The notes under the pieces are model-generated. The model did not search any database. It was not told the origin of the DNA and saw nothing but the letters and a program-made list of their open reading frames with translations. Both the position numbers and the translations under genes were made by a program. A DNA stretch of 64,000 bases. Origin: Ashinkailepas kermadecensis (lineage: Eukaryota; Arthropoda; Thecostraca; Neolepadidae). The first letter of the stretch is position 1. Each line of letters begins with the position of its first letter. The stretch is taken from positions 667,501 through 731,500 of the forward strand of contig JAOTOM010005127.1 in the NCBI GenBank assembly GCA_034440615.1, in the 5' to 3' direction. Of this stretch, positions 37,635-62,966 are shown piece after piece.

Positions 37635-37819
37635 GCATCATCAAGGCCGTCTCGCTGATGTCCATCCACTGCTGCTACCTGCTGTGGCCGGTCGGCAGCG
37701 GCAGCATCAGCGGCCGGCTCCACTTCTGGCTGTTCGTGGCGTTCAGCGGCGCCACACTGTACACGTTCCTGAACGCGCTGCTGGTGGGGCCGGGCGCCGT
37801 GCCGCGGCGGTGGCGACCG
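37635..37819 (+). CDS. ZDHHC6: ZDHHC6-like palmitoyltransferase, exon 2 (TM1-TM2)
   Basis: Acceptor GTGTGGCGGCAG, donor GTGAGT; 185 nt, entering two bases into a Gly codon and leaving in phase 0. It encodes IIKAVSLMSIHCCYLLWPVG (first membrane segment), a short loop SGSISGRLH, and WLFVAFSGATLYTFLNALLV (second segment), then the DHHC-family GPGAVP motif and RRWRP. GPG-x-VP followed by W(K/R)P is the family signature at the end of TM2. The upstream exon with the start codon, probably only 20-25 residues, was not found. A donor-seeded array follows. Confidence 0.9.
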
Positions 37820-38215
37820 GTGAGTGGCGACGTGGAGGGAGAGGAAGGGGAGCGGAGAGGGGTCAGGTGGAGACCGGTGGGTGGGGCGGGGTAGGGAGAG
37901 TGAGGGAGTGATCAGGTGTCAGGTGGAGGCCGGTGGGTGGGGCGGGGTAGGGGGAGTGAGGGAGTGGTCAGGTGTCAGGTGGAGGCCGGTGGGTGGCGGC
38001 GGGGGAGGGAGGAGTCAGGCGACAGGTGGAGGCCGGTGGGTGGGGCGGGGTAGAGAGAGAAGGGGAGCGGTGAGGGTTCAGGTGCCAGGTGGAGACCGGT
38101 GAGCGAGGGAGGGAGCAGCGGTGAGGGGTCAGGTGACGACCGGTGAGTGGCGGAGGGTAGGGAGAGGGAGTAGGAACGGTGAGGGTTCAGGTGCCAGGTC
38201 GAGACCGGAGCGAGG
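37809..38215 (+). repeat. Donor-seeded array after ZDHHC6 exon 2
   Basis: About six imperfect units of 55-70 bp. Each repeats the exon end and donor GGTGGCGACCGGTGAGTGG as GGTGGAGACCGGTGGGTGGG, GGTGGAGACCGGTGAGCG or GGTGACGACCGGTGAGTGG. Confidence 0.85.
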
Positions 38216-38650
38216 TGAGGGAGTGTAGGACTACTTTAAAAGTGAAACGTTCCAGTTGTTGATTTTTCTCAACTTTTTTGGGGGATTCTCATGTCATTAC
38301 ATATCGAAATTCCGATATAGCAGCTGCTGTCTGCTATAGAACTGCTGTCGCGCTATAACTGAGCGAGGGCATTGCACGTTGTCTTAGAGTCTATAATTTT
38401 GGCATGTACGCATGTCTTCAAAAGCCGAACGTCAGGTAAAGTGACCGTCACTTGCGGCGGACCCATGGTGACACGGAAGGTGTTTATCATTTCAATATGT
38501 AGATACTTGATCCATGTGTATAATAATTGGTAATCCATCCTACGTTGCATGGGCGACGATTCTAAGCTGAAATAGGATCTAAGACAACTTCGATGTCTGT
38601 ACCGCTGTGGACGATAACGAGAAGACTTGCCCGGGGAGGAGGAACAAGGA
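38216..38650. other. Unannotated intronic DNA
   Basis: Nothing recognised between the two arrays in intron 2. Confidence 0.45.
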
Positions 38651-38654
38651 CGCC

Positions 38655-40062
38655 GCTGACAGCCGATGGCCGGATGTGTTGTGACTGCACTGTTGTGTTG
38701 TGTTGTGATGCAGCGCCTGTCTCTCCGCGTCCATCAGGCGGGCCCGGGGGGGGGCGCTGACAGCCAATGGCGGGAGTGTTGTGACTGCACTGTTTTGTTG
38801 TGTTGTGTTGTGTTGTGCTGTGTTGTGATGCAGCGCCTGTCTCTCCGCGTCCATCCAGGCGGAGCCCGGGGGAGGAGGGGCAAGGACGCCGCTGACAGCC
38901 GATGGCGGGATGTGTTGTGACTGCACTGTTGTGTTGTGTTGTGATGCAGCGCCTGTCTCTCCGCGTCCATTCAGGCGGAGGCCCGGGGGAGGAGAGGCAA
39001 GGACGCCGCTGACAGCCGATGGCGGGATGTGTTGTGTTGTGTGTGTTGTAATGTGATGCAGCGCCTGTCTCTCCGCGTCCATCCAGGTGGAGGCCCGGGG
39101 AGGAGGGGCAAGGACGCCGCTGACAGCCGATGGCGGGATGTGTTGTGACTGCACTGTTGTGTTGTGTTGTGTTGTGTTGTGCTGTGTTGTGTTGTGATGC
39201 AGCGCCTGTCTCTCCGCTCCATCCAGGCGGAGCCCGGGGGAGGAGGGACAAGGACGCCGCTGACAGCCGATGGCGGGATGTGTTGTGACTGCACTGTTGT
39301 GTTGTGTTGTGATGCAGCGCCTGTCTCTCCGCGTCCATCCAAGCGGAGCCCGGGGAGGAGGGGCAAGGACGCCGCTGACAGCCGATGGCGGGATGTGTTG
39401 TGACTGCACTGTTGTGTTGTGTTGTGATGCAGCGTCTGTCTCTCCGCGTCCGTCAGGCGGAGGCCCGGGGAGGAGGGGCAGGACGCCGCTGACAGCTGAT
39501 GGCGGATGTGTTGTGACTGCACTGTTGTGTTGTGTTGTGATGCAGCGCCTGTCTCTCCGCGTCCGTCAGGCGGAGCCCGGGGGAGGAGGGGCAAGGACGC
39601 CGCTGACAGCCGATGGCGGGATGTGTTGTGACTGCACTGTTGTGTTGTGTTGTGATGCAGCGCCTGTCTCTCCGCGTCCTTCAGGCGGAGGCCCGGGGAG
39701 GAGGGGCAAGGACGCCGCTGACAGCCGATGGCGGGATGTGTTGTGACTGCACTGTTGTGTTGTGTTGTGTTGTGATGCAGCGCCTGTCTCTCCGCGTCCA
39801 TCCAGGCGGAGCCCCGGGGAGGAGGGACAAGGACGCCGCTGACAGCCGATGGCGGGATGTGTTGTGACTGCACTGTTGTGTTGTGTTGTGCTGTGTTGTG
39901 ATGCAGCGCCTGTCTCTCCGCGTCCATCCAGGCGGAGGCCCGGGGAGGAGGGACAAGGACGCCGCTGACAGCTGATGGCGGGATGTGTTGTGACTGCACT
40001 GTTGTGTTGTGTTGTGCTGTGTTGTGTTGTGATGCAGCGCCTGTCTCTCCGCGTCCATCCAG
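38655..40062 (+). repeat. Acceptor-seeded array before ZDHHC6 exon 3
   Basis: About twelve units of roughly 115 bp. Each ends with the acceptor tract CTCTCCGCGTCCATCCAG and continues with the start of exon 3 (GCGGAGGCC), then diverges (CGGGGAGGAGGGGCAAGGAC). TGTTGTGTTG runs vary in length between units. The last unit is the real splice site. Chance frames run through it on both strands. Confidence 0.93.
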
Positions 40063-40147
40063 GCGGAGGCCGAGGCCGAGAAGCTGCTGCAGTTCTGCTC
40101 GTTTTGTGACGGCTTCAAAGCGCCGCGCGCCCACCACTGTCGAAAGT
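40063..40147 (+). CDS. ZDHHC6: ZDHHC6-like palmitoyltransferase, exon 3 (start of DHHC zinc domain)
   Basis: Acceptor CGCGTCCATCCAG, donor GTGAGT; 85 nt, phase 0 in, one base over at the end. It encodes AEAEAEKLLQFCSFCDGFKA then PRAHHCRK, with the last T starting a Cys codon completed by exon 4. FCSFC and HHCRKC supply the first zinc ligands of the cysteine-rich domain, in the CX2C...KAPRxHHCRKC spacing of the family. An alternative acceptor 29 bases upstream (GATGCAG) would read out of frame. Confidence 0.92.
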
Positions 40148-40500
40148 GTGAGTCCGGAGTCCAGTGCTGAGTCCCAGAGCCCACCACTGTCGAAAGTGTG
40201 AGTCCGGAGTCCAGTGCTGAGTCCCAGAGCCCAGCACTGTCGGGAAGTGTGAGTCCCAGAGCCCAGCACTGTCGAAAGTGTGAGTCTGGAGTCCAGTGCT
40301 GAGTCCCAGAGCCCAACACCGTCGAAAGTCTGAATCCCAGAGTCCAGCACTGAGGGGAGTGTGAGTCCGTAGTCCAGGGCTGAATCCCAGAGCTCAGCAC
40401 TGTCGAAAGTGTGAGTACGAGCTCTAGGGTTGTCCCAGAGCGCACCACTGTCGAAAGTGTGAGTCTGGAGTCCAGTGCTGAGTGCCAGAGCCCGGGGCTG
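40130..40500 (+). repeat. Donor-seeded array after ZDHHC6 exon 3
   Basis: About seven units of 45-60 bp. The first copies CCCACCACTGTCGAAAGTGT across the junction exactly, so 18 exonic bases plus the donor GTGAGTCC are duplicated. Later units read CCCAGCACTGTCGAAAGTGT. Confidence 0.92.
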
Positions 40501-40930
40501 CGTCCCTGGAGATGAGCACTAAAATCCACTTCCGGGCTTCAGTCCAGAGTCCAAGTGCCATGCAGGGTCGCAGTTCGATCCACGGATCCAAGTCTTAGTC
40601 CAAAATGACCCTCCTGAGTCCGAGTCGCGTCCTTTTATCGCGCCTGAGTCTCGTCATTCAGCAGTGTTTTTGTATTTATTGTTCGAGTAGCAGTTGTCTC
40701 ATGGTGGACGACCTATAGCAGATTGCTCCACAGAAGAATAGCATTGATGATACACGGATTTTATGGTGACGGGCACCCGTGTGCGATTAACATGCAGGTT
40801 GATCAGTGCCGAGCGTGTTAGCCCAGGACATGTTTTGGCTGTGTAAATTAGGCTACATGGTCGACGCGCCCTAAAGCCCAAATTACTAACTAACTTAGGC
40901 TACTCATCATCTGTATGTGTGGCATGCTGG
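40501..40930. other. Unannotated intronic DNA
   Basis: No gene or element recognised. Confidence 0.4.
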
Positions 40931-40934
40931 ACTT

Positions 40935-41392
40935 TAGATGGCTTCAGTATTTGTTGCCGACGTGTCTGTGATGTGCACACAATAGCTCCAGTATTGGCTG
41001 CCGATGCTTATGTGATGTGCACACAATAGCTTCAGTGTTGGCTGCCGACGTTTCTGTGATGTGCACACAATAGCTTCAGTATTGGCTGCCGATGCTTGTG
41101 ACGTGCACACAATAGTGTTGGCTGCCGACGTGTCTGTGATGTGCACACAATAGCTCCAGTGTTGGCTGCCGATGCTTGTGACGTGCACACAATAGTGTTG
41201 GCTGCCGACGTGTTTCGTATGTGATGTGCACACAATAGCTCCAGTATTGGCTGCCGATTTTGCCAAAGCTTCAGTGTTGGCTGCCGATGTCTGTGACGTG
41301 CACACAATAGCTTCAGTGTTGGCTGCCGACGTTTCTGTGATGTGCACACGATAGCTTCAGTATTGGCTGCCGACGTGTCTGTGATGTACATC
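40935..41392 (+). repeat. Minisatellite, 'AGTGTTGGCTGCCGATGCTT'
   Basis: About eleven units of 40-52 bp: AGTGTTGGCTGCCGACGTGT, CTGTGATGTGCACACAATAG, CTCC. Intron 3. Confidence 0.9.
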
Positions 41393-41469
41393 ATGCCACC
41401 CGGTCCCATTTCCCCTGCTTATTTGCTTTCAGTTCTCTCATCCGCAATATCGTCGTTCATTAGCATCTA

Positions 41470-41582
41470 TCTTTGTATTGTTAATGGACACGGATACTTT
41501 GTATTGTTAATGGACATGGATACTTTGTATTGTTAATGGACACGGATACTTTGTATTGTTAATGGACACGGATACTTTTAAT
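41470..41582 (+). repeat. 27-bp minisatellite, 'TTTGTATTGTTAATGGACAC'
   Basis: Four units of TTTGTATTGTTAATGGACAC followed by GGATACT. Confidence 0.92.
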
Positions 41583-41734
41583 AGTAAGAGATCTCCCGCG
41601 CCCAGCCATTTCACATCAAAGCACTTTTATCAATTCACTGTCTTGTGCCAAAGTTCATTCTGTTCCTCCTGCCTGGTATCTCTTGTTCAGTGTTGCTCCA
41701 GGCAGTGGTTGCACGGGGTTAAAGTAATGGTTTT

Positions 41735-42120
41735 CATTTGATGTGCAACATCCAAAAGAACTCAGCAGAATGTCGAAATTCGCCATGGACTGTCACACAA
41801 TTATTTATCAGCTCCTGTAAGATTATGAAAGCCAATAAGATGCTTGTAACAGCATACTTTCGTTGTGTTTAGGGGTAATTATATAACACATCGCACTATG
41901 TTAGGTCACAGTACCTGTAATTGTATCATGAAGTGTGTGTTGCACTGTCCATAATAATAATCATGTGCATGATAATTCCTAAATTATAAATAAAGCACTG
42001 TTTTCAGCACGAAATGCAGACTCTAAGCACATCCATAAGCATTGTGTTCGAAATTGATCCGAAAGGACGTCGATTCAGCATTCAAAAAGGTGAAATGTTC
42101 CACCAATTTCTACCACAAAC
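41735..42120 (-). mobile_element. Degenerate hAT-like MITE copy
   Basis: On the minus strand it reads GGTGGAACATTTCACC, GAATGCTGAATCGACGTCC and CATGGCGAATTTCGACATTC in the order of the hAT-like MITE family, but the ends are not definable. Confidence 0.55.
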
Positions 42121-42149
42121 GTATCACCATGGTTACAGAGCCAGCCATT

Positions 42150-42402
42150 GTACACGTCTGTTGTGGGCTGGTAGCCAATGTCTGGCGTTGCGTTGTGGTA
42201 GCCTGGCGTCGTGTTGTGGGCTGGTAGCCAGTGTCTGGCGGTGTTGTGGTAGCCTAGCGTCGTGTTGTGGGCTGGTAGCCAATGTCTGGCGGTGTGTTGT
42301 GGTAGCCTGGCGTCGTGTTGTGGGCTGGTAGCCAGTGTCTGGCGGTGTGTTGTGGTAGCCTAGCGTCGTGTTGTGGGATAGTAACCAGTGTATGGCGTGC
42401 TC
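42150..42402 (+). repeat. Array before ZDHHC6 exon 4, acceptor-like
   Basis: About four units of roughly 60 bp containing GGTAGCCAATGTCTGGCG and TGTTGTGGTAGCCTGGCG. The repeated GGTAGCCAATGT resembles the exon 4 start GGTAACCGATGT. The final unit ends in the real acceptor GGCGTGCTCAG. Confidence 0.78.
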
Positions 42403-42404
42403 AG

Positions 42405-42568
42405 GTAACCGATGTGTGATGAAGATGGACCACCACTGCCCGTGGATCAACGCGTGCGTGGGCCACCGCAACCACGCCTACTTCACCTACTTTCTGCTGC
42501 TGGCCGTGCTGGGCTCCGTGTACGGCGCCGGCCTCATGAGCTACACCCTCTACCACGTGTTCACCGGC
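42405..42568 (+). CDS. ZDHHC6: ZDHHC6-like palmitoyltransferase, exon 4 (DHHC active site and TM3)
   Basis: Acceptor GGCGTGCTCAG, donor GTGAGT; 164 nt, its first two bases completing the Cys codon from exon 3. It encodes NRCVMKMDHHCPWINACVGH then RNHAYFTYFLLLAVLGSVYG and AGLMSYTLYHVFTG. DHHC is the catalytic motif: its Cys accepts the acyl group from acyl-CoA. The CPW-x-N-x-CVG-x-xN-x-x-F extension and the following hydrophobic segment (TM3) are standard. In ZDHHC6 the domain faces the cytosol at the ER membrane. Confidence 0.96.
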
Positions 42569-42745
42569 GTGAGTCCAGCAGAGGTACACTCTCTACCACA
42601 TGTTCACCGGGATCAGTCCAGCAGGGGTACACCCTCTCCCACGTGTTCACCGGCGTGAGTCCAGCAGAGGTACACCCTCTACGACGTGTTCACCAGCGTG
42701 AGTCCAGCAGGGGTACACCCTCTACCACGTGTACACCGGCGTGAG
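42543..42745 (+). repeat. Donor-seeded array after ZDHHC6 exon 4
   Basis: About four extra units of roughly 45 bp, each copying CTCTACCACGTGTTCACCGG C and the donor GTGAGTCCAGCAG. About 26 exonic bases (codons for TLYHVFTG) are therefore duplicated into the intron, with scattered substitutions. Confidence 0.93.
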
Positions 42746-43079
42746 TCCAGAAGAGTTGCACTATGACGCCACCATGATTATCTAGCTGAATCATTTTCAG
42801 CGAAGTCAGCCTTTCATAAAAAAAACCTCATCTTCTGCTGCCTGTCTTCAGGCTACTAGTTTCCTCAGGGGCTGCATAAGTCCTTAATGCTGCAAACAAT
42901 TGCTGTGCAAAGCCCCTCTGCGCCTGCGACAAGTCATGTAAAGAAATGGCAGGGATCGTGATGTTTCGTCTGCGATGTTCACGTCGCCTCAGTCGCGAAT
43001 GTGGCAATGCTGCTGTGAAATGGACAGCCGGGAGGTGGGCACAGCGGGTGGCAGTCCGGCCCGCGGCTGGTGCCCATGG

Positions 43080-43635
43080 CCGGACCCAGCCGTGGCGTCA
43101 CCAGCCGTGGCGTCACCAGTCGTGGCGTCACCAGCCGTGGCGTCACCAGTAATAGCGTCATCAGCCATGGCGTCACCAGCCGTAGCGTCACCAGCCGTAG
43201 CGTCACCAGCCATGGCGTCACCAGCCAAGGCGTCACCAGCCGTAGCTTCACCAGCCATAGCGTCACCAGCCGTGGCGTCACCAGCCGTGGCGTCACCAGC
43301 CGTGGCGTCACCAGCCGTGGCGTCACCAGCCGTAGCGTCACCAGCCGTGGCGTCACCAGCCATGGCGTCACCAGCCATGGCGTCACCAGCCGTAGCGTCA
43401 CCAGCCGTGGCGTCACCAGCCATGGCGTCACCAGCCATGGCGTCACCAGCCATGGCGTCACCAGCCATAGCGTCACCAGCCGTGGCGTCACCAGCCATGA
43501 CGTCACCAGCCATGGCGTCACCAGCCATAGCGTCACCAGCCGTAGCGTCACCAGCCATGGCGTCACCAGCCGTGGCGTCACCAGCCATGACGTCACCAGC
43601 CATGACGTCACCAGCCATAGCGTCACCAGCAGCGC
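43080..43635 (+). repeat. 15-bp satellite, 'GGCGTCACCAGCCGT'
   Basis: About 37 units of 15 bp, varying mainly at two positions (GCCGTGGCGTCACC, GCCATAGCGTCACC). The period keeps all frames open, giving chance chains such as VASPA and GVTSR. Intron 4. Confidence 0.95.
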
Positions 43636-44215
43636 GAACGTTTTGGCCACTGGGTGTTATTAACTGGAATGCCTGAAATTGGAAAACTTTACATTTTTCA
43701 TTGATTTGCGTAGGTGCAATTTCAGCCGTGTGAGGTGACTTGTCAAGGGATGTCAAGAGAAAAACCATCGAACAGGATGGGAGGGGTTGAAATCCGGTGA
43801 CTCAGAAACGATGGTAGATTTGGCCCCCTTTACAGGGCAATTAAGTTGGTCACGAATCGTTATATTTAAAAAAGAGGTAAAAATGGAGCCCTTTTGAAAG
43901 AAATAGTGGTCGAAGTCCAAGAACGTGTTTGTAATTGGGTGGGTGGGCCCACTCCAAATCCGTCTCCCCTCCCCTAGCGCAAATCCTGGGTGCGCCACTG
44001 GGAAGGCCTGAATGCAAGTCGCAAGTCCTACACAGATTCACTACGTGATGCGTGATGATTTCGGCGCTCTGTGATAGGGAACACGTAAGAGGTCACCTGA
44101 TCCGTGAGAGGTCACCTGACTTGTGATAGGTCATCTAGCTGGTGGCTCTGCCTAGGTCCCAAACAAACTCAGCTCGTCGGTTAATGCTGGACACGACAGG
44201 CCTGTATGAGTCACG
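43636..44215. other. Unannotated intronic DNA
   Basis: No gene recognised. The end (CGCAAATCCTGGGTGCGCCACTG) may be a transposon terminus, but no partner was found. Confidence 0.4.
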
Positions 44216-44219
44216 CACA

Positions 44220-44425
44220 TCTCTCTCCCCCTCCCCTCTCCTCCCCTCTCCTCTCCTTCCCTCCCCTCCTCCCCTCCCCTCCCCCTCCCCTCCCCTCCCC
44301 TCCCCCCTCCCTCCCTCCCCTCCTCTCCCCCCTCCCCTCCTCTCCTCTCCTCTCCTCTCCTCTCCTCTCCTCTCCCTCTCCTCTCCTCTCTCCCTCCTCT
44401 CCTCTCCTCTCCTCTCCTCTCCTCT
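44220..44425 (+). repeat. Polypyrimidine (CTCCC/CTCCT)n tract
   Basis: About 200 bp of nearly pure C and T, continued after the SINE at 44586-44660. The SINE inserted into this tract. Confidence 0.95.
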
Positions 44426-44585
44426 GGGGACGACTGGTCTAGGGGTAAAATGCTCGTATTACAATCGAAAGGTTGTGAGTTCGAGTCTCACCTGTCGCTA
44501 CTCTTCGCCCGCGACCAATCGGCGTGAGAGATTGGCGACGCTACATGACTCAACGGTCGACGTGTCGTAAAACCAATAACCAACC
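44426..44585 (+). mobile_element. tRNA-derived SINE (subfamily A), copy 3
   Basis: GGGGACGACTGGTCTAGGGG head, GTGAGTTCGAGTCTC B box and the full body and tail, close to the copy at 36369. It splits a polypyrimidine tract. Confidence 0.9.
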
Positions 44586-44724
44586 TCTTCTCCCCTCCCC
44601 TCCCCTCCCCTCCCATCTCCTCCCCTCCCCTCCCATCTCCTCCCATCCCCTCCCACCCAGCCTGACCCCGACCACACTGAACATTGAGGTGACGATCGAT
44701 CCGACTCCCCGCCCCTGTCCGCAG

Positions 44725-44853
44725 ATCTACCACCGCTGGCCGCCCGCCGCCCAGCCCATCGTCATGAGCCTGCACGCGCTCATGCTGTGCCTGTTCTGCC
44801 TCGGCCTGGCCATCGGCGTGGTGATGGCCGTCGGGATGCTGTTCGTCTACCAG
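44725..44853 (+). CDS. ZDHHC6: ZDHHC6-like palmitoyltransferase, exon 5 (TM4)
   Basis: Acceptor CCCCTGTCCGCAG, donor GTGAGG; exactly 43 codons, phase 0 both ends. It opens IYHRWPPAAQPIVMSLHALM and continues LCLFCLGLAIGVVMAVGMLF VYQ, the fourth membrane segment. The position and GMLF ending match the ZDHHC6 group. A GTGAGGTG-rich array follows the donor. Confidence 0.9.
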
Positions 44854-45410
44854 GTGAGGTGTCGCTGTGTGCGGCTGTGGTGTTGTGTGGTGTGGGTTTT
44901 GCTGCTTGTGGTGTGGGTTGTTGCTGTGATGTTGCTGTTTGGTGTGAGGTGTTGCTATGTGCTGGCTGTGGTGTTGCTGTGTGGTGTGAGGTGTTGCTGT
45001 GTGCCTGCTGTGGTGTGAGGTGTTGCTGTGTGCCAGCTGTAGCGTTGCCATGTGATGTGAGATGTTGCTGTGTGCTGTGAGATGTTGCTGTGTGCGAGCT
45101 GTGGTATTTGTATGTGGCGTGAGGTGTTGATGTGTGATGTGAGGTGATGGTGAGGTGTTGATGTGTGATGTGAGGTGGTGGTGACGTGTTGCTGTGTGAT
45201 GTGGGGTGGTGGTGACGTGTTGCTGTGTGATGTGAGGTGGTGGTGACGTGTTGCTGTGTGATGTGGGGTGGTGGTGACGTGTTGCTGTGTGATGTGGGGT
45301 GGTGGTGACGTGTTGCTGTGTGATGTGAGTTGGTGGTGACGTGTTGCTGTGTGGTGGTGACGTGTTGCTGTGTGATGTGGCGTAGTGGTGCGATGCTTGT
45401 GCATAGTGTG
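44852..45410 (+). repeat. Donor-derived array after ZDHHC6 exon 5
   Basis: About 20 irregular units starting with the donor word GTGAGGTGTCGCTGTGTG and continuing as GTGAGGTGTTGCTGTGTG, later GGTGGTGACGTGTTGCTGTG. Only the intronic donor bases are copied, not exon. Confidence 0.82.
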
Positions 45411-45789
45411 AGGTTTTCCTGCGGCAGGTTTCGTGTCGGTGAGGAAGTTGTTTCCTGGATGTATGCTGCTCAGTTCGCATCAACTAAAGTGGTGTGTGTC
45501 AGTTAGGGCCGTGTCAGAGCTCCAGCGTCTCAAACCCTCGACATGCTTAGTACCCCGATTTTCACCAAACATTGAAATTTCGTGCCTTCAAGCCTCGAAA
45601 TGACGGCAAATAGCTTTTTGCTATGTTTTTGTTATTCTGCCTATACTTATGCTTTTTACTTATTGCTTATATTATGTTTATGCTTATGCATTTTTCTCGG
45701 AATATGTTATCCTTGCACCATCTTCCCAAATCGTCCACTCCGACGACCTGGCTTACGGAGTTTCAGAGCCATGTAGTGGGGAAGACCAC
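45411..45789. other. Unannotated intronic DNA
   Basis: Nothing recognised. Confidence 0.4.
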
Positions 45790-46405
45790 ACCGGCTCCTG
45801 GGAGGACATTGTGGCCCGGTGTGACCTCGGGAGGGCGTTTTGGCCCGGTGTGACCTCGGGAGGGCGTTGTGGCCCGGTGTGACCTCGGGAGGGTGTTGTG
45901 GCCCGGTGTGACCTCGGGAGGATATTGTCGTATGGTGTGACCTCCGGAGAACATTGTGGCCTGGTGTGACCTCTGGAAAACATTGTGCCCTGGTGTGACC
46001 TCGGGAGGACATTGTGGCTCGGTGTGACCTCGGATGGATATTGTGGCCCGGTATGACCTCTGGAAAATATTGTGGCCTGATTTGACCCTGGAAAGACATT
46101 GTGGCCCGGTGTGATCTCGGGAGAACATTGTGACCTGGTGCGACCTCTCAGGAGGACATTATGACCTGGTGTGACCTCTCAGGAGGACATTGCGACCCGG
46201 TGTGACCTCGGGAAGACATTGGGACCTGGTGCGACCTCTCAGGAGGACATTGTGACCTGGTGCGACCTCTCAGGAGGACATTCCACTTCAGGAGGACATT
46301 GTGACCTGGTGCGACCTCTCAGGAGGACATTGTGACCCGGTGTGACTTCTGTGAAACCTCGTGACCCGGTGTGACCTCGGGAAGACACTGTGACCCGGTG
46401 TGACC
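45790..46405 (+). repeat. Minisatellite before ZDHHC6 exon 6
   Basis: About 20 units of 29-31 bp, TGTGGCCCGGTGTGACCTCG followed by GGAGGACAT. The last unit (GACCCGGTGTGACCTGG) runs into the acceptor CTTTGTCTGGCAG. The acceptor itself is not repeated. Confidence 0.92.
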
Positions 46406-46421
46406 TGGCTTTGTCTGGCAG

Positions 46422-46541
46422 ACGCTGTCGATCGTGCGTAACCGGACCGGCGTGGAGGACTGGATCCTGGAGAAGGCTGTCTACCGGCGCCGGCTGATCT
46501 TCCAGCGCCGTTTGGGCCAGCTGCTGGAGCGGCAGGAGCAG
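46422..46541 (+). CDS. ZDHHC6: ZDHHC6-like palmitoyltransferase, exon 6
   Basis: Acceptor CTTTGTCTGGCAG, donor GTCAGG; exactly 40 codons, phase 0 both ends. It encodes TLSIVRNRTGVEDWILEKAV then YRRRLIFQRRLGQLLERQEQ. NRTGVEDWI corresponds to the TTxE-type motif that follows TM4 in DHHC enzymes and packs near the active site. The rest is a basic amphipathic cytosolic segment. Confidence 0.9.
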
Positions 46542-46735
46542 GTCAGGGACCCTCCCACATGCCCCATCCAGCAGGTTGCGGACTCTCCCACATACCCCAC
46601 CCCACTCAGCAGGTTAGTGACTCTCCCACATACCTCACCCAGCAGGTTAGGCACTCTCTTGCATACCACACCCAGCAGGTTAGGCACTCTCCCATATACC
46701 CCACCCAGCAGGTTAGGCACTCTCCCACATTGAGT
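46535..46735 (+). repeat. Donor-derived array after ZDHHC6 exon 6, part 1
   Basis: About five units of roughly 34 bp. The junction GAGCAGGTCAGGGACCCTCC is echoed as CAGCAGGTTGCGGACTCTCC and CAGCAGGTTAGGCACTCTCC, with CACATACCCCACC between. Confidence 0.85.
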
Positions 46736-46989
46736 CTCCCACATGCTTCTTATTGTATAATTTATGTGCACGCACCTTGCCCTTGATTTCTCAGCACCCT
46801 TCCATTCCTTGACCCGATACCTACCCTCTGTCCTTGTTTCAGTCTATTGAGCCGGCGCCGACTGGCTGCAGTGCTCTAGAATGCAACGTCCTTAATCGCT
46901 ACGTCCTTTGCCATTTAGCTGATTTATTTATTCATATCCATCCTGTGCAATAATAGCCACCAGCTGCGTGGATGTACTTGTAAGTCAAT

Positions 46990-47190
46990 ACAATACACAT
47001 ACCCCATCCAGCAGGTTAGGGACTCTCCCACATACCCCACTCAGCAGGTTAGTGACTCTCCTACATACCTCACCCAGCAGGTTAGAGACCCTCCTCCATA
47101 CCCAACCCAGCAGGTTAGTGGCTTCCCCCACCACACCCACTGCCCCCCCACCACCACCACCCTCCTCAGTACCCACCGAGCAGGTGAGTG
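46990..47190 (+). repeat. Donor-derived array after ZDHHC6 exon 6, part 2
   Basis: The same unit (CAGCAGGTTAGGGACTCTCC) resumes after about 250 bp of unrelated DNA, for five or six copies, the last as GAGCAGGTGAGTGACACACC. The intervening DNA is probably an insertion. Confidence 0.82.
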
Positions 47191-47775
47191 ACACACCCCA
47201 GGTGACGTGGCAGATAGGTTGTTTGCCGTGTTTGTATGCGTCTAATCCCACTTCTCCCAAGGTTCCCCAAATCCCATTCCCGTTTCCCAAAGGCTTCATG
47301 TGGTGGCGACGTTGTGCAGTCGGTATCCGTCTAGTGTTCGGCGGCTTGATGCGCTGGATGTGATCGGTGTTGCTGAATGAAACTGGCTCTAAGTGTGGTT
47401 TTTCGTTAAAGGCGGAAATGGCACTGGCGGGGTGGGCTGGTTCGCGCAACGCATTGGCGCCATGTTGAAGCTCTTTGAAGCTCGTGGGGCCATTTTGAAG
47501 CTCGAATCATGCGCACGCAGTCGAAACGTACCGCTGCGTGAAGCAACAGATAATGATGACGAAAAAGACTGCTTGAAGTTTAACCTCCATCCAGCTGTAG
47601 ACTGGAAGTCAAAATATAGTGGATGCTTCGCGTCTGTTTGCGGTTGTTTCGTATAATCTTGTAAATTCGTAAAGTCGTGGATGCTGCGGTAATTTCAGCA
47701 ACTAGTGGTGAACTGAAATTCGATCAAAACTTTGCGCTCAGGCGGCCGTTTTCGTAGGCAGCGCTACATATGGCG
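47191..47775. other. Unannotated intronic DNA
   Basis: No recognised gene or element. Confidence 0.4.
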
Positions 47776-48062
47776 ACATCCGCAGGCTGATTTCAACACC
47801 GGGAATTGTCATATTTGTGTTGTCATATGTGAATAATCTTAGCTGAATTATCGTATGGGAAGCAGGGTGGACAAATTTATCCAGTTCAGTAATCGTGTTT
47901 TTTTTGTATTCTACAATGTGGAGTGGTGAGATGGCGAAAGTTAGGTGGACAAAGTTACCTTCATGCAGGTGAGTCACGCGTGTGTTACGGGAGCTCTAGT
48001 GAACATCCGCAGGCTGATTTCAACACCGGGAATCGTCATATTTGTGTTGTCATATGTGAATC
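47776..48062 (+). repeat. Spaced direct duplication of about 58 bp
   Basis: CATCCGCAGGCTGATTTCAA followed by CACCGGGAATTGTCATATTT and GTGTTGTCATATGTGAAT occurs at about 47777-47835 and again at 48004-48062 with one or two differences. Confidence 0.88.
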
Positions 48063-49650: not shown

Positions 49651-49689
49651 TACCGGTGTGTAGCTAGTATATGCCGATGGCGAGCCGGT

Positions 49690-52220: not shown

Positions 52221-52224
52221 CTTC

Positions 52225-52772: not shown

Positions 52773-52843
52773 GCGCCGCTGGTGTAGTGGTATCATGCAA
52801 GATTCCCATTCTTGCGACCCGGGTTCGATTCCCGGGCGGCGCA
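52773..52843 (+). tRNA. tRNA-Gly (CCC)
   Basis: A complete 71-nt cloverleaf. The acceptor stem GCGCCGC pairs with GCGGCGC and the discriminator base is A. The A box is TGGTGTAGTGGTATCATGC. The anticodon arm CAAGA-TTCCCAT-TCTTG gives anticodon CCC. The T arm is ACCCGGGTTCGATTCCCGGG. A TTTT run five bases downstream suits Pol III termination. As far as I recall it matches the metazoan tRNA-Gly-CCC very closely. It lies inside a ZDHHC6 intron on the same strand. Confidence 0.96.
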
Positions 52844-52859
52844 CGCTTTTCGGCTTTGT

Positions 52860-53295
52860 TGATCCTTTCTTACCAATCCGGTGCGGTTCTCACGTGCTTT
52901 ACTACTGTTCGTGAGAAGAGCTATGCATGTGATAGCCAATGTTATGCTATTATGCATCATTGAAAATCTGTCGGCGCTGCTGGTTCGGTTCCCGACCGGC
53001 GAGAGTTTCATTAGGTGAATAGGTTGCGGAATGCTACACCAAGTTGTAATTAATGTCTTGTCATCGTGGTTGCTGATGTTGCGTGTTCGCTAACGCCCAA
53101 AGCATGCGGGTATGTGGTGCATGCTTGGATGCACACCCAAGTGTACCCGCCCCCTTAATGCTTGGGATTTTATGATCCTGCAAACTTAAAAATCAAGACG
53201 AAACGAATCGTCTCCATTCCCTGCCATCTTCGCCCGCTGAACGAGCTTTTTTCCCTGAAAACGAGGCCTTCTGAACATACAGATCAAGCCTGCTC
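52860..53295. other. Unannotated intronic DNA
   Basis: No recognised gene or element. Confidence 0.4.
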
Positions 53296-53299
53296 CTTC

Positions 53300-53957
53300 A
53301 AAAATATGTGCTGCAGGTGTACTGGCGTGTGCCCTATGTGTATTTGCCACAGGTGTACTGGCGTGTACCCCATGTGTATGTGCCGCAGGTGTACAGGCGT
53401 GTGCTGTGTTTCTCAGGTGTGCTGCTATGTGTGCCGTACGCGCTGATATGTGCCGCAGATGTGCTGATATGTGTGCGATATGTGCTCATGTGAGCCGTAC
53501 GTGCGCCAGGTGTGCTGATATATGTGCCGTTTGTGGCGCAGGTGTGCTGATTGTATGCTGTATGTGCTGATATGTGCCGTGTGTGCCGCAGATGTGCTAA
53601 TATGTGTGTCGTATGTGCCTCAGGTGGCCTGCTGTGTGTCGTATGTGGTGGTGTGTGCCGTGTGTGCCACAGGTGTGCTAATATATATGCATGTGTGCTG
53701 GCTGATATGTGCCGTATGTACTGATGTGTGCCGTATATGCGGCAGGTGTGCTGATAAGTGTGGCGTATGTGCTGATGTGTGCCGTTTGTGTCACAGGTGT
53801 GCTGATGTGTGCCGTATGTGCCGCAGGTGTGCTGATATATGTGCTGCGGTGTGCTGATATATGTGCCATATGTACTGATGTGTGTCGTATGTGCTGATGT
53901 GTGCCACAGGTGTGCGGGCGTGCTGATGTGTGCTGATGTATGCCGTATGTGCCGCAG
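53300..53957 (+). repeat. Acceptor-seeded array before ZDHHC6 exon 9
   Basis: About 25 irregular units of 24-30 bp containing TATGTGCCGCAGGTGTGCTG, the same as the genuine junction TATGTGCCGCAGGTTTGCGG. Many units keep a consensus CCGCAG or CACAG acceptor followed by GTGTGC. Confidence 0.9.
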
Positions 53958-54048
53958 GTTTGCGGGTGTGCTGCCACCCGCCCTGCACGGACGAGAGTCG
54001 GCTCGCCGTCGGCCGGGGCGACTGCGTGGTGGTGTCACGCTGGCGGAA
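53958..54048 (+). CDS. ZDHHC6: ZDHHC6-like palmitoyltransferase, exon 9 (SH3-like domain)
   Basis: Acceptor TATGTGCCGCAG, donor GTACGT; 91 nt. The first two bases complete a Gly codon with exon 8 and the last two begin a Lys codon finished by exon 10. It encodes LRVCCHPPCTDESRLAVGRG then DCVVVSRWR. PCT(D/E)E(S/P)R and the following G(D/E)-x-(V/I) strand match the ZDHHC6 SH3-like domain. The Cys in PPCTDE is retained. A neighbouring Cys pair (VCC) sits ten residues downstream of where vertebrates have theirs. Confidence 0.9.
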
Positions 54049-54064
54049 GTACGTGCCGACCGAG

Positions 54065-54465
54065 AGCGAGGAGGTCATGACACGAGGAGGGAGCACACGA
54101 CAGGGCACCGTCACAATACCCTCACTGGTGTCACGAGGAGGTCATGACATGAGGAGGGAGTACACGGCAGGGCACCGTCACAATACCCCCACCGGTGTCA
54201 CGAGGAGGTCATGACATGAGGAGGGAGTACACGGCAGGGCACCGTCACAATACCCCCACCGGTGTCACGAGGAGGTCATGACATGAGAAGGAGACACACG
54301 GCAGGGCACCGTCACAATACCCTCACTGGTGTCACGAGGAGGTCATGAGGGAACACACGGCAGGGCACCGTCACAATACCCCCACCGGTGTCACGAGGAG
54401 GTCATTACATGAGGAGGGAGTACACGGCAGGGCACCGTCACAATACCCCCACCGGTGCAAGGAAA
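54065..54465 (+). repeat. Array just downstream of the exon 9 donor
   Basis: About six units of roughly 64 bp: GAGGAGGTCATGACATGAGG, AGGGAGTACACGGCAGGGCA, CCGTCACAATACCCCCACCG. It starts about 20 bases after the donor; the donor itself is not repeated. Confidence 0.92.
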
Positions 54466-54629
54466 TTAATATTTTCTAGTGGATGCACCGGCCAGCAAGA
54501 TTTATTTCACATCCGTTCTGCCTTTGCCCACACCCCTTTGGTACGTGAATTATGACTTGGAAACACGAGGTCTCAGTACATTTATCAGCCTGCCAGTAAA
54601 TGACAGGAATTCACAGTCGACCGCCACGA

Positions 54630-55665
<1,036 letters not shown>

Positions 55666-55954
55666 CCTCTCCCTCTCCCTCTCCCTCTCCCCTTCTCCCT
55701 TTATATCTCTCACCCCACCCTCTTCATCTCGTTCACCCTCTCCCACTCCATCTCCCTTATCCACTCCTCCCTCCCCTTATCCGCCCTCTCCCTCTTCCTC
55801 TCCTTCACCCTCGCCATCGCCCTCTCCATCGCCCACCCTCATCATCGTCCTCATCCTCAACCTCGTCCTCATCCTATCCCTCTCTATCTGTATCTCTGAG
55901 ATGTGCAGTCGTAAACTACCAACGCCTATGACATCCACCGCTGCGTGACAGGTC

Positions 55955-56085
55955 ACGGGTGACAGGTCTGACAGGTGACAGATCACAGCATTTCAGGTCA
56001 CGGTATGACAGGTCTGACATGTGACATGTCACGGCATGACAGGTCTGACCGGTCACGCCATGTCAGAGGTGACATACGCTGACGT
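55955..56085 (+). repeat. 'TGACAGGTCTGACATGTGAC' repeat
   Basis: About five irregular units of TGACAGGTCTGACAGGTGAC with CACGGCATGACAGG. Confidence 0.8.
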
Positions 56086-56113
56086 CGTATGTGCTAGATG
56101 CCGTCTTTGTTTG

Positions 56114-56597
56114 CAGTGATAAAGTACTCGTGAAATTGGATGGAATATACCACTTTCTGAGCAATCAATCGACATCCTTCTCCAAAAAGTATGGACATCC
56201 TGCTTCGTGATGCGTGATTCGATGAAGTTTTCGTGTATCCTTTCTAGCAGTATCTCGTTCATAATCATCATGCGCATGCCCTCGATAAAGGACAAATACA
56301 CGAACATTTCACAACGCAATTTCAGGTAAAGGGATTACCTATGATATGATATGGCATACAATACCAGTTTATAGCATAAGTTTTTTTTCTCGCTGTCAAG
56401 GATATAGCTCTTCTTAAATTATGAATATCAGAACAAGTGACAAAGGTACAGTCAGAAGTACGCCATTAGCTCAAATTTGAGTCTGAAAGACATCAGGAGC
56501 AATTTAAAGGACATTAATTCCATGGCAAATTTAGACATCCTACTGTGCTCGTTTCGACATCTCGCACCTAACAAAAAAAACTATTATTTCCACTCTG
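56114..56597 (+). mobile_element. hAT-like MITE, copy 5, with perfect target duplication
   Basis: 484 bp from CAGTGATAAAGTACTCG to ATTTCCACTCTG, flanked by TTTGTTTG at 56106-56113 and 56598-56605. It shares GGATGGAATATACCACTTTC and the CGTTTCGACATCTCGCACCT word with the other copies. It sits just before the exon 10 array. Confidence 0.93.
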
Positions 56598-56654
56598 TTT
56601 GTTTGTGACGTGTTCACAGGTTCTGACACTGCATGTGCGTGGCAGGTCAGTGAC

Positions 56655-59600
56655 CCTGTGTGTGTGTGTACCACAGGTACTGGCTGTACGGGGAGCGGCG
56701 GGTCCCAGTACCCGTCTGACGGTGACTGTGTGTACCACAGGTACTGGCTGTACGGGGAGCGGCGGGTCCCAGTACCCGTCTGACGGTGACTGTGTGTGTG
56801 TACCGCAGGTACTGGCTGTACGGGAAGCGGCGGGTCCCAGTACCCGTCTGACGGTGACTGTGTGTGTACCACAGGTACTGGCTGTACGGGGAGCGGCGGG
56901 TCCCAGTACCCGTCTGACGGTGACTGCGTGTACCACAGGTACTGGCTGTACGGGGAGCGGCGGGTCCCAGTACCCGTCTGACGGTGACTGTGTGTGTGTA
57001 CCACAGGTACTGGCTGTACGGGGAGCGGCGGGTCCCAGTACCCGTCTGACGGTGACTGTGTGTGTACCACAGGTACTGGCTGTACGGGGAGCGGCGGGTC
57101 CCAGTACCCGTCTGACGGTGAGTGTGTGTGTGTACCACAGGTACTGGCTGTACGGGGAGCGGCGGGTCCCAGTACCCGTCTGACGGTGACTGTGTGTACC
57201 ACAGGTACTGGCTGTACGGGGAGCGGCGGGTCCCAGTACCCGTCTGACGGTGACTGTGTGTACCACAGGTACTGGCTGTACGGGGAGCGGCGGGTCCCAG
57301 TACCCGTCTGACGGTGACTGTGTGTGTACCACAGGTACTGGCTGTACGGGGAGCGGCGGGTCCCAGTACCCGTCTGACGGTGACTGTGTGTGTGTGTACC
57401 ACAGGTACTGGCTGTACGGGGAGCGGCGGGTCCCAGTACCCGTCTGACGGTGACTGTGTGTGTACCACAGGTACTGGCTGTACGGGGAGCGGCGGGTCCC
57501 AGTACCCGTCTGGCGGTGACTGTGTGTACCACAGGTACTGGCTGTACGGGGAGCGGCAGGTCCCAGTACCCGTCTGACGGTGACTGTGTGTACCACAGGT
57601 ACTGGCTGTACGGGGAGCGGCGGGTCCCAGTACCCGTCTGACGGTGACTGTGTGTACCGCAGGTACTGGCTGTACGGGGAGCGGCGGGTCCCAGTGCCCG
57701 TCTGACGGTGACTGTGTGTGTGTACCACAGGTACTGGCTGTACGGGGAGCGGCGGGTCCCAGTACCCGTCTGACGGTGACTGTGTGTGTGTACCACAGGT
57801 ACTGGCTGTACGGGGAGCGGCGGGTCCCAGTACCCGTCTGACGGTGACTGTGTGTACCACAGGTACTGGCTGTACGGGGAGCGGCGGGTCCCAGTACCCG
57901 TCTGACGGTGACTGTGTGTACCACAGGTACTGGCTGTACGGGGAGCGGCGGGTCCCAGTACCCGTCTGACGGTGACTGTGTGTACCACAGGTACTGGCTG
58001 TACGGGGAGCGGCGGGTCCCAGTACCCGTCTGACGGTGACTGTGTGTACCACAGGTACTGGCTGTACGGGGAGCGGCGGGTCCCAGTACCCGTATGACGG
58101 TGACTGTGTGTACCACAGGTACTGGCTGTACGGGGAGCGGCGGGTCCCAGTACCCGTCTGACGGTGACTGTGTGTGTACCACAGGTACTGGCTGTACGGG
58201 GAGCGGCGGGTCCCAGTACCCGTCTGACGGTGACTGTGTGTACCACAGGTACTGGCTGTACGGGGAGCGGCGGGTCCCAGTACCCGTCTGACGGTGACTG
58301 TGTGTGTACCACAGGTACTGGCTGTACGGGGAGCGGCAGGTCCCAGTACCCGTCTGACGGTGACTGTGTGTGTGTACCACAGGTACTGGCTGTACGGGGG
58401 AGCGGCGGGTCCCAGTACCCGTCTGACGGTGACTGTGTGTGTACCACAGGTACTGGCTGTACGGGGAGCGGCAGGTCCCAGTACCCGTCTGACGGTGACT
58501 GTGTGTACCACAGGTACTGGCTGTACGGGGAGCGACGGGTCCCAGTACCCGTCTGACGGTGACTGTGTGTGTGTACCACAGGTACTGGCTGTACGGGGAG
58601 CGGCGGGTCCCAGTACCCGTCTGACGGTGACTGTGTGTGTGTACCACAGGTACTGGCTGTACTGGGGAGCGGCAGGTGCCAGTACCCGTCTGACGGTGAC
58701 TGTGTGTACCACAGGTACTGGCTGTACGGGGAGCGGCGGGTCCCAGTACCCGTCTGACGGTGACTGTGTGTGTGTACCACAGGTACTGGCTGTACGGGGA
58801 GCGGCGGGTCCCAGTACCCGTCTGACGGTGACTGTGTGTGTACCACAGGTACTGGCTGTACGGGGAGCGGCGGGTCCCAGTACCCGTCTGACGGTGACTG
58901 TGTGTACCACAGGTACTGGCTGTACGGGGAGCGGCGGGTCCCAGTACCCGTCTGACGGTGACTGTGTGTACCACAGGTACTGGCTGTACGGGGAGCGGCG
59001 GGTCCCAGTACCCGTCTGACGGTGACTGTGTGTGTGTACCACAGGTACTGGCTGTACGGGGAGCGGCGGGTCCCAGTACCCGTCTGACGGTGACTGTGTG
59101 TGTGTACCACAGGTACTGGCTGTACGGGGAGCGGCGGGTCCCAGTACCCGTCTGACGGTGACTGTGTGTACCACAGGTACTGGCTGTACGGGGAGCGGCG
59201 GGTCCCAGTACCCGTCTGACGGTGACTGTGTGTGTACCACAGGTACTGGCTGTACGGGGAGCGGCGGGTCCCAGTACCCGTCTGACGGTGACTGTGTGTG
59301 TGTACCACAGGTACTGGCTGTACGGGGAGCGGCGGGTCCCAGTACCCGTCTGACGGTGACTGTGTGTGTGTACCACAGGTACTGGCTGTACGGGGAGCGG
59401 CGGGTCCCAGTACCCGTCTGACGGTGACTGTGTGTGTACCACAGGTACTGGCTGTACGGGGAGCGGCGGGTCCCAGTACCCGTCTGACGGTGACTGTGTG
59501 TGTGTACCACAGGTACTGGCTGTACGGGGAGCGGCGGGTCCCAGTACCCGTCTGACGGTGACTGTGTGTACCACAGGTACTGGCTGTACGGGGGAGCGGC

Positions 59601-62600
59601 GGGTCCCAGTACCCGTCTGACGGTGACTGTGTGTGTACCACAGGTACTGGCTGTACGGGGGAGCGGCGGGTCCCAGTACCCGTCTGACGGTGACTGTGTG
59701 TGTGTACCACAGGTACTGGCTGTACGGGGAGCGGCGGGTCCCAGTACCCGTCTGACGGTGACTGTGTGTGTGTACCACAGGTACTGGCTGTACGGGGAGC
59801 GGCGGGTCCCAGTACCCGTCTGACGGTGACTGTGTGTGTACCACAGGTACTGGCTGTACGGGGAGCGGCGGGTCCCAGTACCCGTCTGACGGTGACTGTG
59901 TGTGTGTACCACAGGTACTGGCTGTACGGGGAGCGGCGGGTCCCAGTACCCGTCTGACGGTGACTGTGTGTGTACCACAGGTACTGGCTGTACGGGGAGC
60001 GGCGGGTCCCAGTACCCGTCTGACGGTGACTGTGTGTACCACAGGTACTGGCTGTACGGGGAGCGGCGGGTCCCAGTACCCGTCTGACGGTGACTGTGTG
60101 TGTACCACAGGTACTGGCTGTACGGGGAGCGGCGGGTCCCAGTACCCGTCTGACGGTGACTGTGTGTGTACCACAGGTACTGGCTGTACGGGGGAGCGGC
60201 GGGTCCCAGTACCCGTCTGACGGTGACTTGTGTGTACCACAGGTACTGGCTGTACGGGGAGCGGCGGGTCCCAGTACCCGTCTGACGGTGACTGTGTGTG
60301 TACCACAGGTACTGGCTGTACGGGGAGCGGCGGGTCCCAGTACCCGTCTGACGGTGACTGTGTGTGTGTACCACAGGTACTGGCTGTACGGGGAGCGGCG
60401 GGTCCCAGTACCCGTCTGACGGTGACTGTGTGTACCACAGGTACTGGCTGTACGGGGAGCGGCGGGTCCCAGTACCCGTCTGACGGTGACTTGTGTGTAC
60501 CACAGGTACTGGCTGTACGGGGAGCGGCGGGTCCCAGTACCCGTCTGACGGTGACTTGTGTGTACCACAGGTACTGGCTGTACGGGGAGCGGCGGGTCCC
60601 AGTACCCGTCTGACGGTGACTGTGTGTGTGTACCACAGGTACTGGCTGTACGGGGAGCGGCGGGTCCCAGTACCCGTCTGACGGTGACTTGTGTGTGTAC
60701 CACAGGTACTGGCTGTACGGGGAGCGGCGGGTCCCAGTACCCGTCTGACGGTGACTGTGTGTGTACCACAGGTACTGGCTGTACGGGGAGCGGCGGGTCC
60801 CAGTACCCGTCTGACGGTGACTGTGTGTGTGTACCACAGGTACTGGCTGTACGGGGAGCGGCGGGTCCCAGTACCCGTCTGACGGTGACTGTGTGTGTGT
60901 ACCACAGGTACTGGCTGTACGGGGAGCGGCGGGTCCCAGTACCCGTCTGACGGTGACTGTGTGTGTACCACAGGTACTGGCTGTACGGGGAGCGGCGGGT
61001 CCCAGTACCCGTCTGACGGTGACGTGTGTGTGTACCACAGGTACTGGCTGTACGGGGAGCGGCGGGTCCCAGTACCCGTCTGACGGTGACTGTGTGTACC
61101 ACAGGTACTGGCTGTACGGGGGAGCGGCGGGTCCCAGTACCCGTCTGACGGTGACTGTGTGTACCACAGGTACTGGCTGTACGGGGAGCGGCGGGTCCCA
61201 GTACCCGTCTGACGGTGACTGTGTGTACCACAGGTACTGGCTGTACGGGGAGCGGCGGGTCCCAGTACCCGTCTGACGGTGACTGTGTGTACCACAGGTA
61301 CTGGCTGTACGGGGAGCGGCGGGTCCCAGTACCCGTCTGACGGTGACTGTGTGTATCACACGGATAGTGGGTGCGGGGGGGCGGCGGGTCCCAGTACCCG
61401 TCTGACGGTGACTGTGTGTACCACAGGTACTGGCTGTACGGGGAGCGGCGGGTCCCAGTACCCGTCTGACGGTGACGTGTGTGTGTACCACAGGTACTGG
61501 CTGTACGGGGAGCGGCGGGTCCCAGTACCCGTCTGACGGTGACTGTGTGTGTGTACCACAGGTACTGGCTGTACGGGGAGCGGCGGGTCCCAGTACCCGT
61601 CTGACGGTGACTGTGTGTACCACAGGTACTGGCTGTACGGGGAGCGGCGGGTGCCAGTACCCGTCTGACGGTGACTTGTGTGTACCACAGGTACTGGCTG
61701 TACGGGGGAGCGGCGGGTCCCAGTACCCGTCTGACGGTGACTGTGTGTGTGTACCACAGGTACTGGCTGTACGGGGAGCGGCAGGTCCCAGTACCCGTCT
61801 GACGGTGACTGTGTGTACCACAGGTACTGGCTGTACGGGGAGCGGCGGGTCCCAGTACCCGTCTGACGGTGACTGTGTGTGTGTACCACAGGTACTGGCT
61901 GTACGGGGAGCGGCAGGTCCCAGTACCCGTCTGACGGTGACTGTGTGTACCACAGGTACTGGCTGTACGGGGAGCGGCAGGTCCCAGTACCCGTCTGACG
62001 GTGACTGTGTGTGTGTACCACAGGTACTGGCTGTACGACGGGAGCGGCGGGTCCCAGTACCCGTCTGACGGTGACTGTGTGTACCACAGGTACTGGCTGT
62101 ACGGGGAGCGGCGGGTCCCAGTACCCGTCTGACGGTGACTGTGTGTGTGTACCACAGGTACTGGCTGTACGGGGAGCGGCGGGTCCCAGTACCCGTCTGA
62201 CGGTGACTTGTGTGTGTACCACAGGTACTGGCTGTACGGGGAGCGGCGGGTCCCAGTACCCGTCTGACGGTGACTGTGTGTGTGTACCACAGGTACTGGC
62301 TGTACGGGGAGCGGCGGGTCCCAGTACCCGTCTGACGGTGACTGTGTGTGTGTACCACAGGTACTGGCTGTACGGGGAGCGGCGGGTCCCAGTACCCGTC
62401 TGACGGTGACTGTGTGTGTGTACCACAGGTACTGGCTGTACGGGGGAGCGGCGGGTCCCAGTACCCGTCTGACGGTGACTGTGTGTGTGTACCACAGGTA
62501 CTGGCTGTACGGGGAGCGGCGGGTCCCAGTACCCGTCTGACGGTGACTGTGTGTGTACCACAGGTACTGGCTGTACGGGGAGCGGCGGGTCCCAGTACCC

Positions 62601-62966
62601 GTCTGACGGTGACTTGTGTGTGTACCACAGGTACTGGCTGTACGGGGAGCGGCGGGTCCCAGTACCCGTCTGACGGTGACTTGTGTGTGTACCACAGGTA
62701 CTGGCTGTACGGGGAGCGGCGGGTCCCAGTACCCGTCTGACGGTGACTGTGTGTGTACCACAGGTACTGGCTGTACGGGGAGCGGCGGGTCCCAGTACCC
62801 TTCTGACGGTGACGTGTGTGTGTACCACAGGTACTGGCTGTACGGGGAGCGGCGGGTCCCAGTACCCGTCTGACGGTGACTGTGTGTACCACAGGTACTG
62901 GCTGTACGGGGAGCGGCGGGTCCCAGCACCCACCCGTCTGACGGTGACTGTGTGTGTGTACCGCAG
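56655..62966 (+). repeat. 6.3-kb array of exon 10 splice acceptors, about 97 units
   Basis: Unit of about 65 bp: a TG-rich tract ending TGTACCACAG, then GTACTGGCTGTACGGGGAG, CGGCGGGTCCCAGTACCC and GTCTGACGGTGAC. The first part is the 3' splice site of ZDHHC6 exon 10 and the second is the exon's start. Length varies by TG copy number. Substitutions are rare (GCAGG for GCGGG, CCGCAG for CCACAG). One degenerate unit at about 61350-61400 has lost the acceptor. Very long frames cross it on both strands, up to about 2200 codons, and are artefacts. Confidence 0.98.

Follow-up and report, generated by a model that had tools for sequence, protein, structure and literature searches.

Tandem arrays spanning exon-intron borders in a ZDHHC6-like gene of the barnacle Ashinkailepas kermadecensis

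We analysed a 64,000-nucleotide stretch of the genome of the barnacle Ashinkailepas kermadecensis (assembly GCA_034440615.1, contig JAOTOM010005127.1, positions 667,501 to 731,500, forward strand; hereafter the window), in which a gene for a ZDHHC6-like palmitoyltransferase carries tandem repeats that copy nine of its 18 exon-intron junctions into the adjacent introns. With a probability of roughly 0.78, we consider these arrays to be minisatellites of the type called mirages in amphioxus, that is, tandem duplications that straddled a splice junction, were tolerated through splicing at the outermost site and were then amplified. The analysis was made on one haplotype of assembled sequence, and positions are those of the window.

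Copies of splice junctions in the ZDHHC6-like gene

The gene and its coding exons are located as follows.

35670..63105, + strand: ZDHHC6-like palmitoyltransferase gene, 10 coding exons, intact frame, 411 aa
35670-35724, 37635-37819, 40063-40147, 42405-42568, 44725-44853, + strand: exons 1-5
46422-46541, 48525-48695, 50149-50245, 53958-54048, 62967-63105, + strand: exons 6-10

Exon 1 was located by tblastn with the Pollicipes protein and exons 2-10 by reading the sequence. All nine introns are GT-AG, and splicing at the outermost sites gives an open frame of 1236 nt (411 codons plus stop). The product of exons 2-10 contains a Pfam DHHC domain (E 1.2e-34). Among the best 120 of 861 relatives of this product, the closest matches are the ZDHHC6-like proteins of Pollicipes pollicipes, a member of Cirripedia (71% identical), and Amphibalanus amphitrite (70%), followed by a decapod protein at 51%. 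Judged by these matches, the gene is a complete ZDHHC6 orthologue. Its coordinates and anatomy, as given in a first-pass annotation of the window, hold.

For each of the 18 junctions, a 24-mer made of 12 exonic and 12 intronic bases was looked for in its own intron and in the remaining eight introns of the gene, a copy being a match of at least 19 of the 24 bases. In this strict test, eight junctions are copied in their own intron, namely donors 2 (2 copies), 3 (5), 4 (4), 7 (22) and 8 (4) and acceptors 3 (7), 9 (5) and 10 (94). Donor 6 is added when only 4-8 of the 24 bases are exonic, which brings the number to nine (donors 2, 3, 4, 6, 7 and 8 and acceptors 3, 9 and 10). These are the nine clear junction arrays of the first-pass annotation, and both the 24-mer copies and gapped alignment bear them out. 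In the eight other introns, no copy was found for any of the 18 junctions, whether the 24-mers held 12, 8 or 16 exonic bases; as had been claimed, the arrays do not resemble one another in sequence. A shared mobile unit such as an introner-like element is consequently rejected for this gene. Nor do we take assembly noise as the main cause; the copies within an array are not identical, and the exons keep the reading frame intact.

The arrays, called with Tandem Repeats Finder (TRF) and with exonic reach taken from gapped alignment, are listed below. TRF returned 142 rows in the window, well beyond the 13-17 that chance gives in five locally shuffled versions of it.

37809..38101, + strand: donor exon 2 array, unit 47-56 bp, 11 exonic bases
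38629..40072, + strand: acceptor exon 3 array, unit about 115 bp, 8-13 exonic bases
40129..40493, + strand: donor exon 3 array, unit about 50 bp, up to 19 exonic bases
42155..42397, + strand: array upstream of exon 4, stops 7 bp short of the exon, does not contain the junction
42538..42755, + strand: donor exon 4 array, unit 43 bp, up to 31 exonic bases
44854..45379, + strand: donor exon 5 array, begins exactly at the donor, 1 exonic base
45800..46406, + strand: array upstream of exon 6, unit 29 bp, stops 15 bp short of the exon, does not contain the junction
46537..47118, + strand: donor exon 6 family in two blocks (46537-46730 and 46996-47118), unit 33 bp, 5 exonic bases (AGCAG/GT)
48683..49656, + strand: donor exon 7 array, unit 41 bp, about 24 copies, 13-16 exonic bases
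50230..50727, + strand: donor exon 8 family in two blocks (50230-50396 and 50448-50727), unit about 51 bp, up to 19 exonic bases
53305..53952, + strand: acceptor exon 9 family, degenerate, 6-16 exonic bases
54067..54457, + strand: array downstream of exon 9, unit 67 bp, starts 18 bp past the donor, does not contain the junction
56661..62996, + strand: acceptor exon 10 array, unit about 64 bp, about 96 copies, about 30 exonic bases

In the gapped alignments, the largest exonic reach is 11 bases at donor 2, 19 at donor 3, 31 at donor 4, 5 at donor 6, 16 at donor 7 and 19 at donor 8, and 13, 16 and 30 at acceptors 3, 9 and 10, respectively; none was found at donors 1 and 9 or at acceptors 2, 4, 5, 6, 7 and 8. 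The reach thus varies from 5 to 31 bases between junctions, with no breakpoint seen to be fixed on the splice signal, which fits units that straddle the junction at no fixed offset, as random breakpoints would. The first-pass annotation had put the upper limit at about 40 exonic bases, which is too high. When the 24-mers extend 24 bases into the exon, 5/18 junctions have copies; at 36 bases 1/18 does, and at 40 bases 0/18. Of 1006 wholly exonic 24-mers, 36 are copied in an adjacent intron, and at acceptor 10 a 24-mer lying wholly within the exon edge still matches 85 copies. Of two weaker cases that had been proposed, the donor 5 array does start at the splice site, with its single exonic base, while acceptor 4 has no support, the array before it falling short of the exon.

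At most edges, other barnacles have conserved the codons that were copied, as with AHHCRKC at donor 3, QYTLT at donor 7 and YWLYGER at acceptor 10; acceptor 3 is an exception. The exonic part of most units would therefore derive from the exon and not the reverse, and the protein comparison supports copying from exon to intron for most units. In the Amphibalanus ZDHHC6 protein, a Gly/Ser-rich repetitive insert occupies the linker just past YWLYGERR, close to the edge of the exon (62967-63105) that seeds the largest array here. The 64-bp array at that edge also keeps minus-strand frames open for more than 2200 codons (56540-63270), likely a by-product of stop-free units.

The donor family of exon 6 has a composition of its own. 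Between 46537 and 47185 it consists of a C/T-rich stretch followed by AGCAG/GT, mostly GTTAG, and a search with the 7-mer AGCAGGT gives 11 matches, the first being the real junction. Most of these matches resemble the motif of recursive-splicing ratchet sites, a pyrimidine-rich tract plus CAG/GT(A/T)AG. The repeat has the look of an acceptor joined straight to a donor, as in recursive splicing.

Array positions relative to exon edges

In the ZDHHC6-like gene, exon edges carry arrays in excess of what uniform seeding predicts. Because an inner array that has grown covers many bases while a junction is covered once, each of 30 TRF arrays was collapsed to one unit and placed uniformly in the collapsed introns. 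At today's collapsed lengths, 8 of the 30 arrays reach 5 bp or more into an exon, where 1.7 would be expected to (P about 1e-4); 15 lie within 45 bp of an exon, compared with an expectation of 4.5, and none of 5000 simulations reached that number. The excess agrees over eight threshold settings. When arrays were reshuffled within introns, 0.07 intron ends were expected to touch an array and nine of 18 do (donor 5 included), and 3.0 were expected to have an array edge at most 45 bp away and 15 of 18 do. The first-pass annotation had spoken of almost every junction, which describes this proximity but not the copying itself, found at half of the borders; the shared position at exon edges that it pointed to stands.

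Among families with a unit of at least 25 bp and at least three copies, 14 of 16 lie within 35 bp of a splice site. These 16 families were merged by hand, with thresholds and merging picked after seeing the data. In terms of bases, a copy within the same intron exists for 59% of intronic 24-mers (52% as a mean over introns, 44% without intron 9). The repeated share at 0-200 nt is 66-83% from the donor and 51-81% from the acceptor; at 25-200 nt from a splice site it is 68-83%, compared with 33-47% at 400-800 nt (33% on the donor side, 47% on the acceptor side). The initial idea was framed such that repeats should be likelier at splice sites than elsewhere in introns; in this gene, they are no likelier per base, and they are likelier per array.

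How strong the exon-entering excess is hinges on past intron length. With introns half as long as the collapsed ones, the expectation rises to 3.2 spanning arrays (P 0.007 for 8), and the excess is not significant if the introns were once four times shorter.

A second gene and the remainder of the window

A gene with HMG boxes on the other strand served for comparison.

5792..11197, - strand: HMG-box gene, two HMG boxes over four exons (11061-11197, 10133-10230, 8407-8610, 5792-5878)

A search for its homologues gave 123 candidates, none with E at or below 0.001; by domain order, the gene may be TFAM-like. The spanning pattern is not repeated here: strict against strict, 8/18 junctions of the ZDHHC6-like gene and 0/8 of the HMG-box gene are spanned (P 0.031), and with four exonic bases one marginal case among the eight is found, against 9/18. 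Four of the eight junctions have an array edge close by, at 7, 23, 26 and 2 bp. In the three closed introns, 2 of 11 arrays are within 45 bp of an exon, against 1.7 expected, and none enters an exon, so that array-edge proximity at their six junctions is at expectation. The two outer introns were given assumed lengths of 2500 and 3500 bp. Units are mostly shorter than in the ZDHHC6-like gene (13-34 bp in the closed introns). An 18-bp array at 4413-5789 leaves several long open frames, likely a by-product of stop-free units.

Array cover in the region 12000-35669 is 8%. This region holds a long terminal repeat (LTR) retrotransposon at 19425-27563, whose direct repeats of 863 bp (19425-20287 and 26701-27563) are identical at 857/863 positions; between them, on the minus strand, lie reverse transcriptase, RNase H and aspartyl protease domains. 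The element, with its nearly identical LTRs, lowers array cover in the region for a reason of its own. A Pfam scan of ten open frames in the window gave matches in two only, a retroelement. Short AACCT arrays lie inside the window at 14165-14216 and 30660-30709 and resemble the arthropod telomere repeat TTAGG. A good tRNA-Gly match (Rfam, 61.6 bits) is found at 52773-52843, in intron 8 of the ZDHHC6-like gene; weaker tRNA-like Rfam matches of 29.5-36.1 bits at 12088-12148, 36376-36436 and 44430-44499 are possibly tRNA-derived short repeats, and a further tRNA-like match at 35443-35520 was given by ARAGORN only.

Known systems, competing explanations and meaning

The first-pass annotation knew of no described system of this kind, but the mirages of amphioxus are such a system. 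The name was given to tandem repeats spanning exon-intron boundaries in amphioxus Adh3, and they are also reported in the globins BflGb6 and BflGb9 and at other loci, at both 5' and 3' boundaries, with units of 10-72 bp in Adh3 and 150-160 bp in the globins and with variation in repeat number (PMC3087553). Further cases are reported in TnC and PGBD5 (PMC3902484), and mRNA splicing is described as regular despite the repeats (PMC3087553, PMC3902484). The barnacle arrays are alike in that their units contain the adjacent exon-intron boundary, on the donor or the acceptor side (8/18 junctions strict, 9/18 relaxed), and in that the unit sequence differs between junctions. They are unlike them in their arthropod host, in affecting nine junctions of one gene, in reaching up to about 96 copies and in that regular splicing is a prediction here. 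The kind was thus already known from single amphioxus genes and is now found in another phylum, at half the borders of one gene: the barnacle mirages are ordinary in kind and unusual in extent, with a density not described in the portions of the amphioxus accounts cited here. Among the open-licence papers listed in our searches, judged by titles and the beginnings of abstracts, we found no arthropod report of junction-spanning arrays.

Two other known cases share features with the arrays. In human CBS, a 31-bp variable number tandem repeat lies at the boundary of exon 13 and intron 13, and more repeats are reported to lower enzyme activity (PMC5188458); this is also a tandem repeat at an exon-intron boundary, differing in that a single junction is involved. 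Tandem duplication of AG/GT proto-splice sites as a route to intron gain (Rogers; Gao and Lynch; Zhuo et al., as related in PMC3087553) likewise copies splice signals in tandem. Unlike there, no sign of a new intron is seen here: the protein and its Pollicipes and Amphibalanus counterparts align with no gap at the exon edges.

We propose that a short local tandem duplication, with a unit of about 30-115 bp, would happen to straddle a splice junction, so that the outer copy stays with the coding exon and the inner copies land in the intron. The array may then expand and homogenise by slippage or unequal exchange. Splicing would use the first donor or the last acceptor, the outermost copy in each case, leaving the protein unchanged and hence the array tolerated. 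If used, 159 of the 162 copies bearing a splice signal would shift or stop the frame, so an intact protein requires the outermost sites. Growth of the arrays outward from the exon was rejected, as copy identity shows no significant trend with distance in the five of nine arrays tested (rho 0.00 to -0.46, none positive, p 0.11-1.0).

Several points weigh against this account. Per base, 8/18 junction 24-mers are repeated, compared with 59% of intronic 24-mers, and the donor-side share of repeated 24-mers climbs back to 59% at 800-1600 nt. If introns are cut to a quarter of their collapsed length, 5.8 spanning arrays would be expected (P 0.19 for 8). The HMG-box gene has no strictly spanned junction among eight, although its array cover is nearly as dense (48%) as that of the ZDHHC6-like gene (59%). 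In addition, outermost-site splicing in this barnacle is a prediction from the reading frame.

Another candidate cause is selection in long introns for extra splice signals, as the first-pass annotation had also offered, or for decoy ones. GT or AG is kept in 162/167 aligned copies, but these copies were selected by at least 70% likeness to the junction, and within these nine arrays the splice dinucleotide shows no significant advantage in retention over the remaining dinucleotides (0.950 vs 0.905, P 0.076; P 0.090 with the dinucleotide masked in copy selection), even though the trend is in that direction. At donor 8, three of six copies have lost GT, and only three of the 162 signal-bearing copies are in frame (one each at donors 2 and 6 and acceptor 10). 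With so few copies in frame and no significant excess in dinucleotide retention, such selection is very improbable.

The edge excess may reflect either preferential seeding at exon borders or introns that were once short, together with survivorship. Tandem duplications that arise evenly, with no process directed at junctions, would suffice if the introns once measured a few hundred bases and were later lengthened by insertions and array growth. The quarter-length expectation fits this, as do the junction share being similar to the 44-59% of intronic 24-mers covered by repeats, the lack of strictly spanning arrays in the HMG-box gene and the reported range of Balanus improvisus aquaporin introns, from 200 bp to almost 6 kbp (PMC5513457). 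The expectations at today's and at half the collapsed length speak against it, as does the position of the long-unit families (9.5 expected at quarter length vs 14, P 0.006, on a post hoc list); in the same species, the mean intron of 706 bp is called likely heavily underestimated (PMC8270832, which also puts the repeat content at 40% or more, with new or diverged repeats making up most of it). We regard this explanation as possible, while leaning away from it. Preferential seeding at exon edges, genome-wide, by a lesion linked to transcription or chromatin (an R-loop, a nucleosome edge or splicing-coupled pausing) is a tentative alternative. It would account for the edge excess in the ZDHHC6-like gene, for the array cover of 59% and 48% in the two genes against 8% in 12000-35669, and for the array edges 2-26 bp from four of eight HMG-box gene junctions; yet the closed introns of that gene show no such preference, and the LTR element depresses cover in 12000-35669 independently. 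The spanning arrays also lack a common strand asymmetry, their coding-strand GC skew running from +0.68 to -0.40; an R-loop with a common G-rich strand, and with it the R-loop slippage first suggested, is unsupported. Survivorship, in which exon-touching arrays are shielded on one side because deletions into the exon are selected out while inner arrays are lost, would cluster arrays at intron ends, among them those that stop 7-43 bp from an exon and do not contain it; on its own it does not explain the exonic bases in the units, and we think it unlikely. The boldest extension, a barnacle mutational process aimed at exon-intron borders genome-wide, by which introns would grow outward from their own ends through junction amplification and leave functional-looking splice-site arrays at most borders of many genes, seems doubtful. 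The original observation is largely real, and its interpretation is partly supported.

With mirage-type duplication as our preferred account, a curiosity of a few lancelet genes is extended to another phylum and to half of one gene's borders, and becomes countable. If exon edges truly seed arrays, barnacle genomes would be a test bed for intron lengthening, for the choice of the spliceosome among tens of near-identical sites, and for possible lesions left at exon borders by splicing or transcription. If they do not, the arrays described here would still suggest that splicing tolerates tens of acceptor copies upstream of the real acceptor.

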